Assembly (NCBI GenBank): GCA_021798955.1
Contig: JAJZBK010000005.1
Span: forward strand, 23,993-87,992
Reading direction: 5' to 3'
Source: Actinomycetes bacterium
Lineage (GTDB): Bacteria > Actinomycetota > Acidimicrobiia > Acidimicrobiales > RAAP-2
Length of the DNA: 64,000 nucleotides
Shown: positions 51,889-64,000 of the stretch, piece after piece
How the letters are laid out: each line of letters begins with the position of its first letter
Position numbering within the stretch: the stretch's first letter is position 1
Translations under genes and position numbers: made by a program
The notes under the pieces: model-generated
Databases searched by the model: none
Seen by the model: only the letters and a program-made list of their open reading frames with translations
What the model was told of the DNA's origin: nothing

Positions 51889-53714
51889 TCAGGCGCGATG
51901 GTCCCCCAAGGGGACGGCGATGGCTGCCGCCCCCGATGCGGCGGGCCGGGCGAGCCCGGTGGCCCGAGCGAGCACCTGGACGGCGAAGAAGTTGCTCTCG
52001 GCCACGGCCCTGGAGGCCTCGCCTGCGCCGTCGTCGAGCGCCTGGCGGGCCCGTCGGGCGAGCAGCCATCCGCCGAGGGTGGTGCCGAGCAGCTCGAGGT
52101 ACGCAGTGGCGCCGGCAACGGCGTCGTCGGGGGACGTCTCCAATCTCGCCAGCATCCACTCGGTGGTGGCCTCGAGCACCCCGAGGACGTCGGCGAGCAC
52201 GTCGAGCGTCGCCGCCAGTGGGTCGTCGTCGGTCATCGGGTGGACCACGAGGTCCGAGACGTCAGCCAACAGCTCGCGTACCCAGCGACCGCCGTCACGG
52301 GGGAGCTTGCGGACGACGAGGTCGAGCGCCTGGATGCCGTTGGTCCCTTCGTAGATGGGGGCGATGCGTCCGTCCCGGAGCCGCTGGGCCATGCCTGCCT
52401 CCTCGACGTAGCCGGCCCCACCGAGCACCTGCACGCCGAGGGACGCTGCCTCGAACCCGCCGTCGGTCGACCACGCCTTGGCGACGGGGGTGAGCAGGTC
52501 GGCGAGCTGCTGGGAGCGCCGGCGGGCGTCGTCGTCCGGAGCGTGCCGGGCCCGGTCGGCGTGGGTGGCGGCAAGGAACAGCAGGGAGCGGGCGGCTTGG
52601 GCGCGGGTCTTCATGACGAGGAGCATCCGTCTGACGTCCGGGTGGTCGACGATGGGCGACCGGGCCGGTGGGGCCACGCCCGGCGCCCTGCCCTGCAGGC
52701 GCATGCCCGCGTAGGAACGGGCGTGCTGGAAAGCCCGCTCGGCCACCGCTGGGCCCTGTGTGCCGATCGAGAGGCGGGCGGCGTTCATCATGGTGAACAT
52801 GGCACGCATGCCGCCGTGGAGCGGGCCCACGAGCTCGCCGACCGCACCGTCGAAGGCCATGGCGCACGTCGGGCTGCCGTGGATGCCGAGCTTGTGCTCG
52901 ACGTGGACGCACGACAGCGCGTTGGCATCCCCGAGGGCGCCATCCGCCGAGACGAGCCGCTTGGGCACGACGAAGAGGGAGAGCCCCTTGGTCCCCGGCG
53001 CTGCCCCCGGTGTCCTGGCGAGCACCAGATGGACCACGTTGTCGGTCAGGTCGTGCTCGCCCCAGGTGATGAAGACCTTGGTGCCGGTGACCCGCCACGT
53101 CGCTCCGTCCGGTTCGGCGAGCGTGCGGATCTCGCCCAGGTCGGAGCCGGCGTCGGGCTCGGTCAGGTTCATCGTGCCCGACCAGGCCCCGGTGAGGAGC
53201 TTCGGCAGGTAGGTGGCCTGCTGCTCGGGAGTGCCCACTGCAGGAGGGCGTGGATCGCCCCTTGGGTCAGCACGGGGTTGAGCGACAGCGCAAGGTTGGC
53301 CGAGGCGAAGAGCTCCTGGAGGGCCAGCGCTACCACCGAGGGGAAGCCTCCGCCGCCGAGGGCCTGGGGGAAGGGCAGCGCTCCGCACCCCCCGTCGACG
53401 TAGTGGCGGTAGGCGACGTGGAAGGCCTCCGGCGTCGTGACCCGGCCGGTGCTGCGGTCGAAGCGTGCCCCGACGACGTCTCCCACTCGGTCGCTCGGGA
53501 CGATGACCTCGGTGGCCAGGCGCCCGAACTCCTCGAGGACGAGGGCGACCGTCTCCCGGTCGACGTGGGCGAAGTCGGGGAGCGCCAGCAGGTCGTCGAG
53601 GCCGGCGACCTCGAGGGCGGCCAGCACGTCGGCGACCGGGGCCTGGTAGGCGTCGTGCCCGGTCCCGCCACCTTCGCCCCCGACGGTTGCCTCGGCTCCC
53701 ACAGTGCTCGTCAC
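51889..53714 (-). pseudogene. Frameshifted large acyl-CoA dehydrogenase (FadE5/DmdC-like)
   Basis: Two frames together make one protein of about 608 residues. The N-terminal part (GTG at 53714, overlapping the icmF stop) runs through FGRLATEVIVPSDRVGD, GGGGFPSVVALALQELF and LTQGAIHALLQ. The C-terminal part continues in another frame with GTPEQQATYLPKLLTG, WSGTMNLTEPDAGSDLG, RIAPIYEGTNGIQALDLV and a C-terminal extension typical of the roughly 600-residue FadE5/3-methylmercaptopropionyl-CoA dehydrogenase group. The break is at 53234-53236, where a G run (plus strand CCC) is one base too short: one extra base would read Gln-Trp-Gly-Thr. Every other active-site feature is intact, so a sequencing error or very recent mutation is likely. 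Confidence 0.85.
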
Positions 53715-56700
53715 ACGTTCCTCCGGTAGGTGCCGCCGACCTCGAAGAGCGTCGCCGTGATGTCCCCGAGGGAGGCGTGGCGGACCGTCTCCATCAGCTC
53801 GGCGAACACGTTCCCGCCCCCGAGGGCCACCTCGCGCAGCCGGCTGAGCGCCGCGGGCCGTTCTGCGGCGTGACGCCGGTGGAACTCGGCGAGCCGGCGG
53901 ATCTGCCCCTGCTTCTCGTCCTCGGTCGCCCGGGACAGCTCGACGGTCTCGGGGATGCCCGGGCTCGTCGGGTCGACGAAGGTGTTCACCCCGACGATGG
54001 GGAGCGAACCGTCGTGCTTGCCGTGCTCGTAGGTCATCGAGTCGTCCTGGATGCGGCCGCGCTGGTAGCCGGTCTCCATGGCGCCGAGGACGCCTCCGCG
54101 CTCGGAGAGCCGGTCGAGCTCGGCGAGGACCGCCTCTTCGACGAGGTCGGTCAGCTCCTCCACCACGAAGCTGCCTTGGAGCGGGTTCTCGTTGGCCGCC
54201 AGTCCCCACTCGCGGTTGATGACGAGCTGGATGGCCAGGGCCCGGCGGACGGACTCGGCGGTGGGCGTGGTCACGGCTTCGTCGTAGGCGTTGGTGTGCA
54301 GGCTGTTGGCGTTGTCGTAGATGGCGCACAGGGCCTGCAGTGTCGTGCGGATGTCGTTGAAGGCCATCTCTTGGGCGTGCAGCGAACGACCCGACGTCTG
54401 GACGTGGTACTTGAGGCGCTGGGAGCGTTCGTTCGCCCCGTAGCGGTCGCGCAGGGCGAGAGCCCAGATGCGCCGGGCCACCCGGCCGATCACCGTGTAC
54501 TCGGGGTCCATCCCGTTGGAGAAGAAGAACGAGAGGTTCGGGGCGAAGTCGTCGACGGCCATGCCTCGGGCGAGGTACGACTCGACGTAGGTGAAGCCGT
54601 TGGCCAAGGTGAAGGCGAGCTGGGTGATCGGGTTCGCCCCGGCCTCGGCGATGTGGTACCCCGAGATGGAGGCCGAGTAGAAGTTCCGCATCTCGTGCTC
54701 GACGAAGTACTGCTGGACATCGGCCATCACCGACAGCGAGAACTCGGTCGAGAAGATGCAGGTGTTCTGACCCTGGTCCTCCTTCAGGATGTCGGCCTGC
54801 ACGGTTCCCCGGACGGTGCGCAAGGTGTGCTCGCGCACCGCCGCGGCCTCGCCCCTGTCGGGGGGTCGGCCGTGCTCGGCGGCGAAGCGCTCGAGCTGCT
54901 GGTCGATCGCCGTGTTCAAGAACATGGCCAGGATGGTCGGGGCGGGGCCGTTGATGGTCATCGACACCGAGGTCGAGGGGTCGCACAGGTCGAACCCGTC
55001 ATAGAGCGCCTTCATGTCGTCGAGGGTCGCTACCGACACCCCCGAGGTGCCGATCTTCCCGTAGACGTCGGGACGGGTGTCGGGGTCCCTCCCGTAGAGG
55101 GTGACCGAGTCGAAGGCGGTGGACAGACGGGTCGCCGGCTGGCCTTGGGCCAGGAGGTGGAAGCGCCGGTTGGTCCGGAACGGGTCCCCTTCGCCGGCGA
55201 ACATCCGGGCTGGCTCCTCGTCGTCCCGCTTGAAGGGGAAGACCCCGGAAGTGAAGGGGAAGTGCCCGGGGAGGTGCTCGGAGCGCAACCAGACGAGCAG
55301 GTCGGCGGGGTCCGTTGCCCGGGGGAGCGCCACCCGGGGGACCCGGGTGCCCGACAGGGACCAGCGGGCGAGCGGGGTCCTCCGCTCGCCGCCGGGACCG
55401 TCGGTGACGAGCTCGTCGCCGGCCAGCACCACGCGCAGCTCGGCCAGCTCGTCGAGGAGCGCACGGCTGTCGGCGTCGACCCCAGCCGCCGCCTCGGCGG
55501 CCACGGCCTCGAGGTCGGCGGGGAGCACCCCCGAGTGCTCGGCGACCAGCTCGGCGGTCGCGGCCACCTGGGTCGCTCGTCGGACGGCGGCAGCTCGACG
55601 AGCGGTTTCGGCGTGGTAGCTGCGGACCGTCTCGGCGATCTCGGCGAGGTAGCGAAGCCGCTCGGGGGGCACGATGGGCGAGACGCTGGTCGACGTCGAG
55701 ACGGCCACCGGGGCGAGCTGGGGATCGCCGAGGGCAAGGCCGTGCTGGCCCAGCAGGTCGCGCACGGACTGGTAGAGGGCGGTGGTGCCGTCGTCGTTGA
55801 AGTGGGCGGCGATGGTGCCGAAGACGGGAAGCGCCCCCGTGCCTCCGGCGCCCGGGCGGCTCCGCGACCACTGGCGGCGGACCGAGCGCAGGGCGTCCTC
55901 TGCTCCCCGACGGTCGAACTTGTTGATCGCCACGAGGTCGGCGAAGTCGAGCATGTCGATCTTTTCGAGCTGGGAGGCGGCGCCGAACTCGGGTGTCATG
56001 ACGTAGAGGGAGACGTCGGCGACGTCGACGACGGCTGCGTCGCCCTGGCCGATCCCCGGCGTCTCGAGGATGACCAGGTCGTAGCCGGCAGCTTTGCAGG
56101 CAGCGATGGCGCCGGGCACCGGCGAGGGGACCTCGGAGGTGCTGCCTCGGGTGGCGAGCGAGCGGAAGAAGACCTGGGGGGTGTCGATGGCGTTCATCCG
56201 GATCCGGTCGCCGAGGAGGGCGCCGCCGCCCCGGCGCTTGGTGGGGTCGACGGCGAGGATGGCGATGCGGAGCTTGTCACCCTGGTCGAGCCGGAAGCGG
56301 CGGACCAGCTCGTCGGTGAGGGACGACTTGCCCGAGCCTCCGGTGCCGGTGACCCCGAGGACGGGAACGGGTCGCCGGGCTGCTGCCCGGTCGAGCTCGG
56401 CGGTCAGTTCGGAGCCGAGGGTGCCGGCCTCGATGGCGGTGACGACCCGGGCGAGGGCCCGCACGTCGCCGACGGCGAGGTCGTCGACACCGTAGGGCTG
56501 GTGGGCGGCGAGGTCGACGTCGCACTCCTCGATGAGGACGTTGACCATGCGCTCGAGACCGAGGCGCTGGCCGTCGGCGGGTGAGAAGATGTGGCGGACA
56601 CCGTGGGCCTCGAGCAGGGCGATCTCGGCGGGCACGATCACCCCGCCGCCCCCGCCGTAGACCTTCACGTCGCCGCGGCCTTCGCTGGCCAGTCGGTCGA

Positions 56701-57028
56701 CCAGGTAGGTGAAGTACTCGACGTGCCCTCCCTGGTAGGAGCTGACCGCCACCCCCTGGACGTCCTCGGCGACGGCGGCTGCCACCACCTCGTCGACCGA
56801 GCGGTTGTGCCCGAGGTGGACCACTTCGGCACCTTGGGCCTGCAGGAGCCGCCGCATGATGTTGATGGCGGCGTCGTGGCCGTCGAAGAGGCTCGAGGCC
56901 GTCACGAACCGGACCGGGTGATGGGGACGGTGGAGCGTCGGGGCTTCGGGGAAGGCCGTCGCGGTACGTGGACGTGCACTCTGGGCGGCCTGATGTCGGC
57001 TAGCAGTGGCGGTTCCCCCGGAGTTCAT
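53711..57028 (-). CDS. icmF: Fused isobutyryl-CoA mutase (IcmF), cobalamin-dependent
   Basis: A 1105-residue fusion that interconverts isobutyryl-CoA and n-butyryl-CoA with adenosylcobalamin. Order: cobalamin-binding domain with SSLFDGHDAAINIMRRLL (lower-ligand His near 50) and SSYQGGHVEYFTYL; MeaB-like GTPase with GVTGTGGSGKSSLTDELV (P-loop near 228-240) and NKFDRRGAEDA; linker; and the mutase barrel with GVFPFKRDDEEPARMFAGEG, ETGYQRGRIQDDSM-type ending (METGYQRGRI). Domain order and VFPFKR favour IcmF over methylmalonyl-CoA mutase. Pivalyl- or isovaleryl-CoA activity is possible. The ATG at 57028 is leaderless, with a MarR-type operator over the promoter. Its end overlaps the frameshifted dehydrogenase gene. 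Confidence 0.94.
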   Translation of the reverse strand: MNSGGTATASRHQAAQSARPRTATAFPEAPTLHRPHHPVRFVTASSLFDGHDAAINIMRRLLQAQGAEVVHLGHNRSVDEVVAAAVAEDVQGVAVSSYQGGHVEYFTYLVDRLASEGRGDVKVYGGGGGVIVPAEIALLEAHGVRHIFSPADGQRLGLERMVNVLIEECDVDLAAHQPYGVDDLAVGDVRALARVVTAIEAGTLGSELTAELDRAAARRPVPVLGVTGTGGSGKSSLTDELVRRFRLDQGDKLRIAILAVDPTKRRGGGALLGDRIRMNAIDTPQVFFRSLATRGSTSEVPSPVPGAIAACKAAGYDLVILETPGIGQGDAAVVDVADVSLYVMTPEFGAASQLEKIDMLDFADLVAINKFDRRGAEDALRSVRRQWSRSRPGAGGTGALPVFGTIAAHFNDDGTTALYQSVRDLLGQHGLALGDPQLAPVAVSTSTSVSPIVPPERLRYLAEIAETVRSYHAETARRAAAVRRATQVAATAELVAEHSGVLPADLEAVAAEAAAGVDADSRALLDELAELRVVLAGDELVTDGPGGERRTPLARWSLSGTRVPRVALPRATDPADLLVWLRSEHLPGHFPFTSGVFPFKRDDEEPARMFAGEGDPFRTNRRFHLLAQGQPATRLSTAFDSVTLYGRDPDTRPDVYGKIGTSGVSVATLDDMKALYDGFDLCDPSTSVSMTINGPAPTILAMFLNTAIDQQLERFAAEHGRPPDRGEAAAVREHTLRTVRGTVQADILKEDQGQNTCIFSTEFSLSVMADVQQYFVEHEMRNFYSASISGYHIAEAGANPITQLAFTLANGFTYVESYLARGMAVDDFAPNLSFFFSNGMDPEYTVIGRVARRIWALALRDRYGANERSQRLKYHVQTSGRSLHAQEMAFNDIRTTLQALCAIYDNANSLHTNAYDEAVTTPTAESVRRALAIQLVINREWGLAANENPLQGSFVVEELTDLVEEAVLAELDRLSERGGVLGAMETGYQRGRIQDDSMTYEHGKHDGSLPIVGVNTFVDPTSPGIPETVELSRATEDEKQGQIRRLAEFHRRHAAERPAALSRLREVALGGGNVFAELMETVRHASLGDITATLFEVGGTYRRNV

Positions 57029-57064
57029 ACGATGCACAATAGTTGAACGTCCACCTATTGTCAC
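57029..57064 (-). promoter_or_regulatory. Leaderless icmF promoter covered by an inverted-repeat operator
   Basis: On the minus strand GTGACA (57064-57059), a 17-nt spacer and TATTGT (57041-57036) form a good housekeeping promoter; the ATG follows 7 nt after the -10. The arms ACAATAG (57036-57042) and CTATTGT (57055-57061) lie on the -10 and next to the -35. The divergent MarR gene is the obvious candidate repressor. Confidence 0.65.
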
Positions 57065-57216
57065 GCCGGCCAGGGCCGGCGGACCCACGTGCGTCACGTG
57101 CGTCACGTGACCTTCCGCGCCGACCCGAGCCAACGGTCCACGCGGCGTTCGCTGGTAGGGTCGGCCCGTTCGACGGTGCCCTCGTGGCACCCGGTGTCGG
57201 AGACGGGAGGGGATCG

Positions 57217-59341: not shown

Positions 59342-59857
59342 TCAGTTGGCCGATCGGGCGAGCTCGGGATGTCGCAGGGTGAGGTCGGCGCAGGATGCGC
59401 ACGCTGATTCCGGCACCAGCCCGACCCGGATCAGGAGACCGAACGTCTTGCAGCCGAGGCACAGCCCGAAGGCGGCCTCGAGGAAGGCGGCAGCAGCCAG
59501 TGCCACCAGCACCGCCTTGCCGGCCGGGCCGAAACCGAGGCCGGTCCACAGCACGGCAGCCGTGGTGGAGAAGACGACGCCCACGCCCTGGGCGAACCGC
59601 TTGGGCGGCCCGTCCACCAGGCGGGGTTCGAGAGGGAGACGGGGGGCAACCACCCGGGTGGCCAGTTGGCCGAGTGGGCTGAGGGTCGGGCCGGTGAGCA
59701 CTCGGGCCCAGAACCCGAGGCAGACGACGACGACCAACCACGGCAGGTCGAGGGAGACGGCGGCGATGCACATGGTCACGACGCCGGTCGCCACCGTACG
59801 GGCGGCGTACTCGTTCACCGGGTTCGGGAAGGTGAACAGCGATCGTGCGGTGCGCAT
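59342..59857 (-). CDS. DUF4395 membrane protein
   Basis: A 171-residue protein with about four membrane helices, beginning FPNPVNEYAARTVA (the conserved N-P-x-N-E start of DUF4395) and containing PKRFAQGVGVVFS and a C-terminal cysteine cluster, LCLGCKTFGLL followed by ACASC. DUF4395 proteins often neighbour thioredoxin or sulfur-transfer genes, so a thiol or redox role is possible; the function is unknown. GAGGAGG precedes the ATG. Two palindromic half-site clusters lie further upstream. Confidence 0.85.
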   Translation of the reverse strand: MRTARSLFTFPNPVNEYAARTVATGVVTMCIAAVSLDLPWLVVVVCLGFWARVLTGPTLSPLGQLATRVVAPRLPLEPRLVDGPPKRFAQGVGVVFSTTAAVLWTGLGFGPAGKAVLVALAAAAFLEAAFGLCLGCKTFGLLIRVGLVPESACASCADLTLRHPELARSAN

Positions 59858-59970: not shown

Positions 59971-60070
59971 GGTGCCAGCGGGTGCCAGCGGGTGCCAGCG
60001 GGTGCCAGCGGGTGCCAGCGGGTGCCAGCGGGTGCCAGCGGGTGCCAGCGGGTGCCAGCGGGTGCCAGCG
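59971..60070. repeat. 10-bp tandem repeat, 10 perfect copies
   Basis: ggtgccagcg is repeated ten times between the DUF4395 control region and the end of a ferritin-like gene. The unit is close to one helical turn. Confidence 0.98.
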
Positions 60071-60091
60071 GGTCGCTAGGAGCCAGGCCGC

Positions 60092-60934
60092 TCAGGCAGC
60101 GAGCTCGGTCGTCCCGGCCCGAGGGGCCGGCCGGCCGCCTGTCTCGGCACCGCCCACGCCGCCGCCGGTGGCTCCGGCCAGGAGCCGGAGCCCAGCCAGA
60201 CTGGGCAGCTGGTCCACCCGCCGGTCGATCCGGGCGGCAGCAGCGGCACCGTCAGTACCGCTGAAGAGGTAGCCGGCCAGGAAGCGGACCTCCGAGTCGG
60301 GCATGACGCCGCTCCCCACCGGCGCCCACCACCGGCGCAGGGCCCACCGCGTCAGGCGTCGAGCCGTCGCCGAGCTGTCCAGCCGCTGGCGGGCCCGCGA
60401 CGCGTAGAAGTCGATGTGCCGGCCTTCCTGACGCATGATCCGCCGGAGGAGCTCGGTGAGCACGGGATGTCCGGCCAGGGCCGCCAACCGCGCGTAGGCG
60501 GCCTGGGTCGTCCATTCGTTGACCGCTCCCCACGCCAGGTGGACGGTGACGATGTGCGGGGTGGCCGCCGAGGCCAGCTGGAAGGCGACGGGGCGGAGGC
60601 TGTCACGGCGGGGGAGACGGGCCCGGGTGGCGGCGACTCGGGACGCGCCGGACGGTTCGGCGTGGGCGTCGAGGACCCGGGCGATGGCCTCGCCGTGCCA
60701 GTGCTCCTCGTAGTTCCAGAAAGTGAGGAAGGAGGTGATCTCCGGATCGCGATGGGCCCGGGTCACGAGCACGTCGCGCAGATAGCAGACGGTGTGGCTC
60801 TCGACGTCGTGCATGTACCGCAGGCACCGGAGGGCGTCGGGATCGAGCGGGGTGTCGCGGAACGAGTCGAAGTCGAGGCCGTCGCAGTCGAGACGCGCCG
60901 AGCGCCGGGCGAAGGTGTCGAGGTCGGTGTGCAT
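60092..60934 (-). CDS. Ferritin-like di-iron protein (desaturase-like)
   Basis: A 280-residue soluble protein. TFWNYEEHWHGEAIARVL (about 71-88) and IMRQEGRHIDFYASRA (about 165-180) give paired E-x-x-H ligand motifs, as in ferritin-like di-iron oxygenases and acyl-ACP desaturase relatives. The intervening helices are long and the C-terminal 30 residues are Gly/Ala-rich. Substrate unknown. The ATG at 60934 fits a SigK-like, leaderless promoter identical in layout to that of the cupredoxin gene. Length is near that of desaturase-like proteins (about 280-330). Confidence 0.78.
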   Translation of the reverse strand: MHTDLDTFARRSARLDCDGLDFDSFRDTPLDPDALRCLRYMHDVESHTVCYLRDVLVTRAHRDPEITSFLTFWNYEEHWHGEAIARVLDAHAEPSGASRVAATRARLPRRDSLRPVAFQLASAATPHIVTVHLAWGAVNEWTTQAAYARLAALAGHPVLTELLRRIMRQEGRHIDFYASRARQRLDSSATARRLTRWALRRWWAPVGSGVMPDSEVRFLAGYLFSGTDGAAAAARIDRRVDQLPSLAGLRLLAGATGGGVGGAETGGRPAPRAGTTELAA

Positions 60935-60968
60935 GCAAGGTGTTCGTCGCCGTCGAGGTCCCGGATGG
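60935..60968 (-). promoter_or_regulatory. SigK-like ECF promoter of the di-iron protein gene
   Basis: On the minus strand CCATCC (60968-60963), 16 nt, CGAACA (60946-60941), 6 nt, then ATG. The mycobacterial SigK consensus is CCATCC...CCGAAT. The same layout precedes the cupredoxin gene; the two regions agree at 33 of 40 positions. Confidence 0.65.
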
Positions 60969-61065
60969 CCATCGTCAACCCGTTCTCGATCGAGTGCGCG
61001 GACGCACCACGACCGGCCCGAGCGGGCCGGTCGTGGCGCGATGCCCGGTTGCCCGGGGCCGTGGG

Positions 61066-61860
61066 TCAGCCCTTCAGGTCGGAGACGGGCCGGGCACCGG
61101 AAGTCGGGCTGAACGCGTTGGGCACGGGGTATTGGCCCAGGGCGAACAAGAGGATGGCTGCATGCTGCAGCTCGACCGGCTGGATGCTGGCTGCCACCTT
61201 GACAGCGGACGTCGACGACAGGCTGCCGATCCCTGCTTGGTAGGTGGCGGCTGCCACGTCCTCGAGCGACAGTGCCAGCTTGGCCAGGCCGACGACGTCG
61301 TGGACCTGGCCGAGCTGCTGGGTGATCATCGGTCCGAGGACGGGGTCGGGCGCGGTGATGGCCTTGTGGCCGGCTGCGGTGAGGATCGAGTTCCACGCCT
61401 GGCCGTGCTGGGCGTGCTGGCTCCTCGCCGTGGTGGCGAAGGTGACGACCGCGGGTGGCACGGTGCCGAGCTTTCCGGCCGTTGCCGCCCGGATGCCGGC
61501 GTCGTACGCACCGACGGCCAGGTTCTCGAGGCTGGCGGCCAGGCCGGCGACGGCCAGGTCGCCGGTCAGCGTGGCCGGGGAGGACGTCGCGTGGGGGGAG
61601 CCGACGGCCTTGGAGGAACCGACGGCTCCCGACGAGCACGCGGCCAGCAGCGCCCCACCGGCCACCGCCCCGGCGCCGACGAGGAAGCCCCGCCGGCTGG
61701 TGCGGACGTGCTCGGTCCACTCGCCCACGGCCTGGTGCAGCCGAGGCAGGGACACCTCGTGGTGGATGGCCTCGAGGTCTCGGGTCATGGCGGTCAGCTC
61801 GACCTCGGTCCCGGCGAAGGACCCGTCTGCGGGCCTGGTGGTCGTGCGGCGGAATCTCAT
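61066..61860 (-). CDS. Tat-exported ferritin-like lipoprotein
   Basis: A 264-residue protein. About 50 cytoplasmic residues precede a twin-arginine signal, TSRRGFLVGAGAVAGG, which ends in the lipobox LLAAC, so a folded, cofactor-loaded lipoprotein is expected outside. The mature part is a four-helix ferritin-like domain with SLENLAVGAYDAG, SQHAQHGQAWNSIL, SLEDVAAATYQAG and QPVELQHAAILL, the Glu and His being candidate di-iron ligands. It overlaps the preceding paralogue by 4 bp (ATGA). The function could be metal or peroxide handling; unproven. Confidence 0.82.
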   Translation of the reverse strand: MRFRRTTTRPADGSFAGTEVELTAMTRDLEAIHHEVSLPRLHQAVGEWTEHVRTSRRGFLVGAGAVAGGALLAACSSGAVGSSKAVGSPHATSSPATLTGDLAVAGLAASLENLAVGAYDAGIRAATAGKLGTVPPAVVTFATTARSQHAQHGQAWNSILTAAGHKAITAPDPVLGPMITQQLGQVHDVVGLAKLALSLEDVAAATYQAGIGSLSSTSAVKVAASIQPVELQHAAILLFALGQYPVPNAFSPTSGARPVSDLKG

Positions 61861-62741
61861 GACCGTGCTCCTTCGGTTGCGGGTCGCGCCTGGTTGGTCG
61901 GGAAGAAGGCTGCAGGGAAGCCGACGGAGCCGGCAGCGGCCGGCAGGTTGGCCACGTTCCCCGGGGCCAGCGTGACGAGCTGGGGAGAGTTGGCCTGCAG
62001 GAGGGCCTGTACGGCGCGGAGGACAGCGGCGTGCTGGGCCTCGACACCCATGATCGACGCCGTCGTCTTCTTGGCGTTGGCGTCGTGAAGCGCGGCGACG
62101 TTTGCCACGTAGGTCTCGGCGGCGGTCTGCTCGAGCTCCAGGGCGAGTGCCACCACGGGGGCCGGCGAGGTGAGGCCGGGCACGGCCGCGTTGACCACCT
62201 TGACGAGAGCCGGGTCGGGGCTGTTCTGGGGCGCCCCGCCGAGGGTGGTGATGGCGGCGTTGAAGGCCTGGGCGTGCTCCTGGTGCTGCTTCTTGGTCGT
62301 GGTGACGAAGGCTTTGATCACCGGGTTGGCGGACGACCCGCCGATGAACGGCAGGGTGAGGGCGGTCGTGTAGGTGCTGACCGCCAGGGCTTCGATCGAC
62401 GCCGCCGTCTGGAGGACCTGGACGTCGGTCGGGGAAGCGGCGAACGCCGGCGTGGACAGCGCCGCCTGGAGGGCGGCGCCGATCCCGGCAGCGGCCAGCA
62501 GCCCGCCCCCGAAGGCGGCGCCGGTGAGGCCGGACACCCTCGTGGCCGCCAGCGCGACGGTGTCCTCCGGGTCGCTGCTCACCTCACGCTCGCCCGAGGT
62601 CTCGACCAGCTCGTCGAGCGCGCCTGCAGTGGTTCGCATGGCGTCGGCGTGGAGATCCTGCGACTCCTCGAGGAGCAGGCGCATCTCGCGCTGGTCGACG
62701 TCGACGGGCGGTGCCGCACCGGGGGGGACGGGTGTGGACAT
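61857..62741 (-). CDS. Exported ferritin-like protein, paralogue of the downstream gene
   Basis: A 294-residue protein. About 70 N-terminal residues precede a hydrophobic segment (GAAFGGGLLAAAGIGAALQAAL) ending at a signal-peptidase-like AFAA; no twin arginine is seen. The ferritin-like domain has SIEALAVSTYTTAL, KKQHQEHAQAFNAAI, LELEQTAAETYVANV and GVEAQHAAVLRAV, in register with the downstream gene, so the two probably arose by duplication and may form a hetero-oligomer. CCAGGAGGAG precedes the ATG at 62741. Confidence 0.82.
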   Translation of the reverse strand: MSTPVPPGAAPPVDVDQREMRLLLEESQDLHADAMRTTAGALDELVETSGEREVSSDPEDTVALAATRVSGLTGAAFGGGLLAAAGIGAALQAALSTPAFAASPTDVQVLQTAASIEALAVSTYTTALTLPFIGGSSANPVIKAFVTTTKKQHQEHAQAFNAAITTLGGAPQNSPDPALVKVVNAAVPGLTSPAPVVALALELEQTAAETYVANVAALHDANAKKTTASIMGVEAQHAAVLRAVQALLQANSPQLVTLAPGNVANLPAAAGSVGFPAAFFPTNQARPATEGARS

Positions 62742-62830
62742 GGTGCTCCTCCTGGTTGGTTTCTGTCGGGTGTGGACGAGTCGGTTCGTTCGGGTGGGAC
62801 GCCAGAGCAGTCCTCGGTGGCGGGCGTCCG

Positions 62831-63262
62831 TCACCCGGAGACGACGAGGGTCCCGGTCATGAACTGGTGGACGGTGCAGTAATAGGGGTACGTGCCGTCC
62901 TTGGTGGGGGCGACGATGGTGACCGACTGGCCCGGCTGGATGAGACCGGTGTTGAACGCTCCCGACCGCGACGTGAGGGTGTGGGCGACGGCGTCGGTGT
63001 TCGTCACCGTCACGTGGGCGCCGGGCCGGACCGTCAGCGTCGCCGGGTGGTAGGCGAAGCTCGAGATGGTGATGGTCGGCCTCCCGGACCCGGCGGCCGC
63101 ATCGCGTGCCGGCGACGACGAGCAGGCGGTGGCCAGGATCCCGACGGTGGCCAGGGCAGCCGCGGCGGCGACCCGGTGGTGCGTGTGCCGGCCGGATTGC
63201 CGACGGCGCTGGTGGCGGCCGGTCTGGTTGGCGGGGGCGGTGGCGGCTTCGGTGACGTGCAT
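62831..63262 (-). CDS. Cupredoxin (plastocyanin-like) lipoprotein
   Basis: A 143-residue blue-copper protein. The N-terminus is rich in His and Arg (HQRRRQSGRHTHHR), followed by a hydrophobic segment and the lipobox ATAC. The cupredoxin domain has ISSFAYHPATLTVRPGAHVTVTNTDAVAHTL and YPYYCTVHQFMTGTLVV: the type-1 copper ligands are His (VAHT), Cys, His and Met (CTVHQFM). It is expected to carry electrons outside the membrane. The ATG at 63262 fits a SigK-like leaderless promoter. It is divergent from the sigma factor gene and next to the ferritin-like pair. Confidence 0.88.
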   Translation of the reverse strand: MHVTEAATAPANQTGRHQRRRQSGRHTHHRVAAAAALATVGILATACSSSPARDAAAGSGRPTITISSFAYHPATLTVRPGAHVTVTNTDAVAHTLTSRSGAFNTGLIQPGQSVTIVAPTKDGTYPYYCTVHQFMTGTLVVSG

Positions 63263-63296
63263 GCCCGGTGTTCGAAGCCGGCGGCGTCCCGGATGA
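63263..63296 (-). promoter_or_regulatory. SigK-like ECF promoter of the cupredoxin gene
   Basis: On the minus strand TCATCC (63296-63291), 16 nt, CGAACA (63274-63269), 6 nt, then ATG. The spacing is identical to the promoter at 60935-60968. Confidence 0.65.
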
Positions 63297-63375: not shown

Positions 63376-64000
63376 ATGCCCGGGAGCGCCGGCGGCGACG
63401 CGCGGCCCACCCCACCCTCATCCGGACCGGGTCCCGGTTCCGAAGGACGGGGCATGGAGCCCGACCTGCAGCAGGTGAGCGATGCCGCCCTGGTCGTCTC
63501 GATCGGTCGCTGGAGCGAGGCGGCGCTGGCCGAGGCCTACCGACGTCATGGCGGGGCCGTCCTGGCGCTTGCCCGGCGGGTCATCCGCAACCAGCAGGCT
63601 GCCGAGGAGGTCGTGCAAGAGGTCTTCCTCGACCTGTGGCGCAGCCCGGAGCGTTTCGACGCCCAGCGGGGGACGCTGCGATCGTTCCTCTTGGCGAGGA
63701 CCCACGGCAAGTCGGTCGACGTGGTGCGCTCCGAGAGCTCGCGCCGGGCCCGCGAGGACCGAACCGCCCGTGAGACGGCCACGGCCGGCTACGACCTCGA
63801 GCACCAGGTGTGGGACCTGGCCGTCGCCGGATCCGTGCGCGAGGCCCTGGACGACCTCCCACCGGAGGTGCGCCAGCCGATCGAGCTGGCCTACTTCGGT
63901 GGTCACACGTACAAAGAGGTGGCAGCGATGCTCGAGACCCCCGAGGGGACCGTGAAGAGCCGCATCCGGGCCGGTCTGGGCCGCCTGCGCAGCACGCTGG
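63376..64000 (+). CDS. ECF sigma factor, SigK-like, partial at right edge
   Basis: 208 codons are present and no stop is reached. After a 25-residue Gly/Pro-rich start, region 2 reads LAEAYRRHGGAVLALARRVIRNQQAAEEVVQEVFLDLW and RGTLRSFLLARTHGKSVDVVRSESSRRAREDR; region 4 reads ALDDLPPEVRQPIELAYFGGHTYKEVAAMLETPEGTVKSRIRAGLGRLR. This is the SigK/ECF19-like pattern, whose members are usually held by a membrane anti-sigma factor (RskA) encoded just downstream, here beyond the window. The ATG at 63376 is leaderless; an in-frame ATG at 63454 is an alternative. Two nearby genes have SigK-like promoters. Confidence 0.88.
   Translation, partial: MPGSAGGDARPTPPSSGPGPGSEGRGMEPDLQQVSDAALVVSIGRWSEAALAEAYRRHGGAVLALARRVIRNQQAAEEVVQEVFLDLWRSPERFDAQRGTLRSFLLARTHGKSVDVVRSESSRRAREDRTARETATAGYDLEHQVWDLAVAGSVREALDDLPPEVRQPIELAYFGGHTYKEVAAMLETPEGTVKSRIRAGLGRLRSTL

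Follow-up and report, generated by a model that had tools for sequence, protein, structure and literature searches.

The locus studied here raises the question of whether a SigK-like ECF sigma factor of an uncultured Acidimicrobiales lineage controls the cupredoxin, ferritin-like and di-iron protein genes located beside it, and by means of which promoters. The source genome is an Acidimicrobiales MAG of 2.52 Mb (92% complete) from a soil-type bacterium, and the window is the whole 64,000-nucleotide stretch that was analysed. A preliminary description had proposed two SigK-like promoters with the layout YCATCC-N16-CGAACA, 6 nt, ATG. Both were located as described on the minus strand, one before the di-iron gene (60941..60968, CCATCC-N16-CGAACA) and the other before the cupredoxin unit (63269..63296, TCATCC-N16-CGAACA), with the ATG 8 nt past the CGAA in each case and a conserved G, discussed below, at about 60950 and 63278, respectively. 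The agreement between the two 40-mers, given as 33 of 40 bases, was 32 of 40 on recounting. The motif is not frequent, since YCATCC-N16-CGAACA had four exact matches in the 2.52 Mb genome and none in the backwards control, and the chance expectation within the window with at most one mismatch was 0.39. The other two exact copies are located within long coding frames: a membrane protein of 648 aa contains one, and a frame of 477 aa resembling glycyl-tRNA synthetase contains the other. A search for YCATCC-N16/17-CGAA before gene starts gave only three matches in the genome, all of them at the SigK-type locus, and all other genome matches of the loose and refined patterns fell in coding frames. 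Two identical coding stretches 2.2 kb apart (G000:C36:28352 and 30580), each with a chance promoter match, suggest a recent gene duplication.

The third match, absent from the preliminary description, precedes the sigma gene itself (63418..63444, plus strand) and consists of TCATCC-N17-CGAA, 9 nt and the ATG at 63454. The locus scan thus confirmed the two promoters already described and raised their number to three. The sigma gene had also been placed 114 bp from one of them; it is indeed adjacent, but this figure is the distance from the ATG at 63262 to an ATG at 63376, which should not be the start. The ATG at 63454 was preferred because the resulting 194-aa product fits the conserved N-terminus, while a start at 63376 would enclose the promoter in the gene. 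The correction puts 191 nt between the divergent ATGs, so that the intergenic region carries two divergent promoters, and the promoter before the sigma gene implies that the system would be autoregulated. The CGAAGGA before the sigma ATG could double as a weak Shine-Dalgarno sequence.

Leftward from the intergenic region, a unit opens with the gene of a cupredoxin lipoprotein (PF13473; 62831..63262, minus strand) and continues with two genes encoding Ferritin_2 (PF13668) proteins, one with a hydrophobic N-terminal segment (61857..62741, minus strand) and the other with a Tat-like lipoprotein signal, RRGFL...LAAC (61066..61860, minus strand), the gene of the latter sharing 4 nt with the preceding one. 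A strong hairpin with 18-nt arms and a 2-nt loop (61003..61040) lies between the second Ferritin_2 gene and the promoter of the di-iron gene (60092..60934, minus strand), and probably splits two transcription units. Rightward, the gene of the SigK-type ECF sigma factor (63454..64000, plus strand) exits the window, with its stop at window-equivalent position 64038, and is followed by an anti-sigma gene that overlaps it via ATGA. Most named relatives of the sigma gene belong to Acidimicrobiales MAGs. FK5.bin72 (L143, 97%) and JA4.bin61 (L144, 90%) are the closest, and both the hairpin and all three promoters are kept in these two MAGs. Two other features of the window were recorded: a perfect tandem array with the 10-bp unit GGTGCCAGCG in 10.3 copies (59971-60073), located between the gene at 59342-59857 (minus strand) and the di-iron gene, and a 1159-aa frame (53711-57190, minus strand) that by eye resembles a methylmalonyl/isobutyryl-CoA mutase fused to its GTPase chaperone.

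The sigma factor is of the two-domain type (regions 2 and 4 only) and nearest to SigK, as had been anticipated. Among solved structures, M. tuberculosis SigK (4nqw) scores best (E 1.7e-25, with the next at 1.9e-14), and among the NCBIfam models SigK ranks first (3e-43). The curated cut-off of this model was not reached (147.8 versus 226 bits for the 208-aa in-window part), and the protein is therefore called SigK-type rather than a strict SigK by that model. Only two other matches to the sigma protein, both weak (31% and 28% identity), were found in the genome. The RskA-like gene expected to the right of the window was present, with a 4-nt overlap with the sigma gene. It encodes zf-HC2 and RskA_C domains (62.7 bits), with a hydrophobic segment between them as read from the sequence, and is the only RskA_C gene of the genome.

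Conservation of the promoters was analysed across the order. The motif was found before the sigma gene in 64 of the 81 loci, when column-shuffled motifs gave a mean of 0.67 (maximum 6) and the backwards motif none; the spacer is mostly 17 and the start codon lies 8-12 nt past CGAA. It also precedes 14 of 28 cupredoxin homologues and 9 of 14 di-iron homologues. Many relatives fit nine of the ten motif positions, the variation being in the first base of the -35 element or as CGTA. No promoter was found before rskA (0/85), and a separate motif is rare at the Ferritin_2 genes (2/22, and 0/19 for the second Ferritin_2 gene). Absence at rskA and at the second Ferritin_2 gene is as expected for operon-internal genes, and the regulon membership of the Ferritin_2 proteins rests, therefore, on co-transcription. 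Among the di-iron genes with neither sigma nor rskA within 1.5 kb, 14 of 21 carry the promoter (shuffled mean 0.1), which argues for action in trans and against hitch-hiking of neighbouring DNA. The di-iron gene and the sigma gene co-occur in 39 of 41 genomes, compared with 142 of 298 overall (Fisher p 4e-12, uncorrected for shared ancestry). A SigK-like reading of these promoters is thus supported by sequence conservation, both with the sigma gene and on unlinked targets.

Some further matches were inspected individually. A metE-like target (C37, L132) was discarded because its motif extends into the end of the preceding gene and its natural ATG falls on the -10 element, and a match in L214 near the start of a thiamine-diphosphate-enzyme-like frame was rejected because it leaves only 4 nt to a TTG. 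In two other genomes, lipoproteins are encoded behind a matching promoter near the sigma gene (L048:1197-1949, minus strand; L096:3301-4566, plus strand), one of them with a duplicated helical His-containing domain; these are possible further regulon members, and by eye they have no fasciclin character. Related small membrane proteins with an HLREWLD motif are also found behind a matching promoter (L053:8958-9470, plus strand; L091:2545-3072, minus strand).

The base count of the 64 sigma promoters revealed conservation of CATCC, of CGWA and of a G four bases ahead of the latter, found in 62 of the 64. This G, which was not used for site selection, is present in 100 of 109 promoters overall, distributed as 62/66 for sigma, 25/27 for di-iron and 13/16 for cupredoxin genes, and all three promoters of the window hold it (CGG at -6 to -4). 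When the G was added to the pattern, with the start codon at 7-12 nt, 81 sites were obtained in 913 kb and none backwards; sigma, cupredoxin and di-iron genes account for 73 of the 81.

The two targets had been described as looking leaderless, which was considered unusual for ECF promoters. The layout was found throughout the order on sigma and target promoters. "Unusual" was an overstatement, as transcripts without a leader make up about a quarter of the total in mycobacteria and about 24% in M. smegmatis (PMC6448022), so that the property is not foreign to the phylum. If CCGAAC is placed at -12 to -7, transcription is predicted to start at a distance of about 0-4 nt from the start codon. Since the start codon is 8-12 nt past CGAA, the mRNAs transcribed from the sigma and target promoters of the order should be leaderless.

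The 280-aa target is a well-supported di-iron protein, cytosolic and ferritin-like. Residues E45, E77xxH80, E140 and E170xxH173 are invariant in 28 orthologues, and the AlphaFold model has a pLDDT of 90. No Pfam family reached its cut-off in the window protein. Foldseek retrieved acyl-ACP desaturases and R2-like oxidases with probability 1.0 and TM 0.5-0.6, with an E of only about 0.005. The target shares the di-iron helical fold of acyl-ACP desaturases and R2-like ligand-binding oxidases and carries two EXXH motifs and two further Glu residues, but it differs from them in its identity of about 15% and in lying below Pfam cut-offs.

The sigma/anti-sigma switch is of a known kind. The M. tuberculosis SigK-RskA pair (ECF18/ECF19, class I anti-sigma) resembles the Acidimicrobiales locus in having an adjacent anti-sigma factor with RskA_C, and the established behaviour of the family is that RskA restrains SigK until a signal arrives, with regulated proteolysis by Rip1 in M. 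tuberculosis (PMC7509140). The CCATCC consensus of SigK was not found in open-access literature, and the mycobacterial comparison was therefore done on genomes. The proposed likeness to the SigK-type elements CCATCC and CCGAAT was borne out, as four genomes whose SigK is 67-73% identical to that of M. tuberculosis carry (C/T)CATCC...GCTCCGAAT at a distance of about 0.9 kb upstream of sigK, where a start codon follows after 6-8 nt. Within 1.5 kb, no site was found at three SigK loci (L184-L186) that are still closer to M. tuberculosis. M. tuberculosis SigK needs C133 and C183 (PMC7509140), whereas the window sigma factor has no cysteine and none occurs in either column across the 81 loci; as no more than 56% of ECF19 members and 94% of ECF18 members have this pair (PMC7509140), its absence does not by itself argue against ECF18/ECF19. 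The zinc-type HX3CX2C motif is found in the anti-sigma factor of at least 68 of the 81 loci, several of the misses being wrong reading frames, and M. tuberculosis RskA does not depend on it (PMC7406223). A sigma factor lacking redox cysteines and an anti-sigma factor with HX3CX2C indicate that signal sensing probably differs from that of M. tuberculosis. The targets are also different, with cupredoxin, Ferritin_2 and di-iron proteins in place of the fasciclin proteins MPT83/MPT70; no fasciclin domain was found in the genome (92% complete), and a fasciclin target of the M. tuberculosis type was accordingly discarded. The mpt83-sigK-rskA cassette of Yersinia enterocolitica (PMC7509140) is similarly compact, with a SigK site before a target beside sigK-rskA, but its target is of the fasciclin-type MPT83 and its host is Gram-negative. 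No description of an Acidimicrobiales ECF regulon was found in the literature, nor of this regulon content, the order-wide leaderless layout or the extra G, with few subscription papers covered.

Very probably, therefore, the locus encodes an autoregulated switch of a SigK-type sigma factor and an RskA-type anti-sigma factor, together with a core regulon predicted to be expressed from leaderless promoters. From the sequences we infer the promoter recognition by the SigK-type sigma factor, the transcription start, the restraint by RskA, the operon structure and the kind of signal, as follows. A membrane-bound RskA-like protein, with zf-HC2 in the cytoplasm and RskA_C as the outer domain, would keep the sigma factor inactive until an envelope signal, probably redox or metal related, frees it. 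The freed sigma factor would steer RNA polymerase to three YCATCC-N(12-13)-G-N3-CG(A/T)A promoters, which would drive the sigma gene and rskA, the cupredoxin and two Ferritin_2 envelope proteins, and the cytosolic di-iron oxidase-like protein, respectively. Transcription would begin at, or a few bases from, the start codon and yield leaderless mRNAs. The combination of cupredoxin, ferritin-like and di-iron targets suggests a metal or redox stress response.

It is unlikely that the promoters are real and the mRNAs nevertheless carry leaders, with translation from downstream codons. The start codons are predictions and the CGAAGGA of the sigma gene looks like a Shine-Dalgarno sequence, but the homology of the di-iron proteins extends to within a few residues of the start codon, which makes a hidden leader improbable, and the spacing from CGAA to the start codon, 8-9 nt in most of 27 di-iron genes, leaves no room for one. 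It is also quite unlikely that a different sigma factor chiefly reads the promoters and that the adjacent SigK-like protein is only one member of a network, as might be argued from the two weak paralogous matches in the genome and from the cross-regulation among M. tuberculosis sigma factors (PMC4821874). Against such a network stand the presence of the motif before the SigK-type sigma gene in most of the order and the occurrence of the di-iron gene with this sigma factor in 39 of 41 genomes. ECF sigma factors, moreover, commonly read their own promoter.

The resemblance of the two promoters first described could also reflect a recent local duplication of upstream DNA with no regulatory meaning, because spacer bases beyond the hexamers are common to both sites (CATCCGGGAC; 32 of 40 positions agree) and the cupredoxin and di-iron proteins both start with Met-His. 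This is extremely improbable and largely refuted by the conservation data: conservation across the order is limited to the hexamers, the G and the spacing, with a variable spacer sequence, the spacer of the sigma promoter differs in sequence and length, and the motif occurs on unlinked genes in other genera.

Beyond the autoregulated SigK-type switch, a broader proposal is put forward tentatively, with a little less than even confidence: Acidimicrobiales SigK may have exchanged its fasciclin antigen targets for a copper/iron redox-protein regulon, with a cysteine-free sigma factor and a zinc-type RskA, and with all core promoters leaderless and read via an additional invariant G located about 15 nt before the start of transcription, which would be a new extended -10 contact for this sigma group. 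The SigK-type switch provides the uncultured lineage with a stress regulon that is well supported and has a short list of targets open to testing, and an unnamed di-iron family and paired Ferritin_2 proteins become tied to a known signalling switch. The predicted leaderless layout constitutes a natural promoter series for studying how ECF sigma factors set start sites without a 5' leader. The conserved G, for its part, makes a specific prediction about promoter recognition, one that may also apply to mycobacterial SigK.
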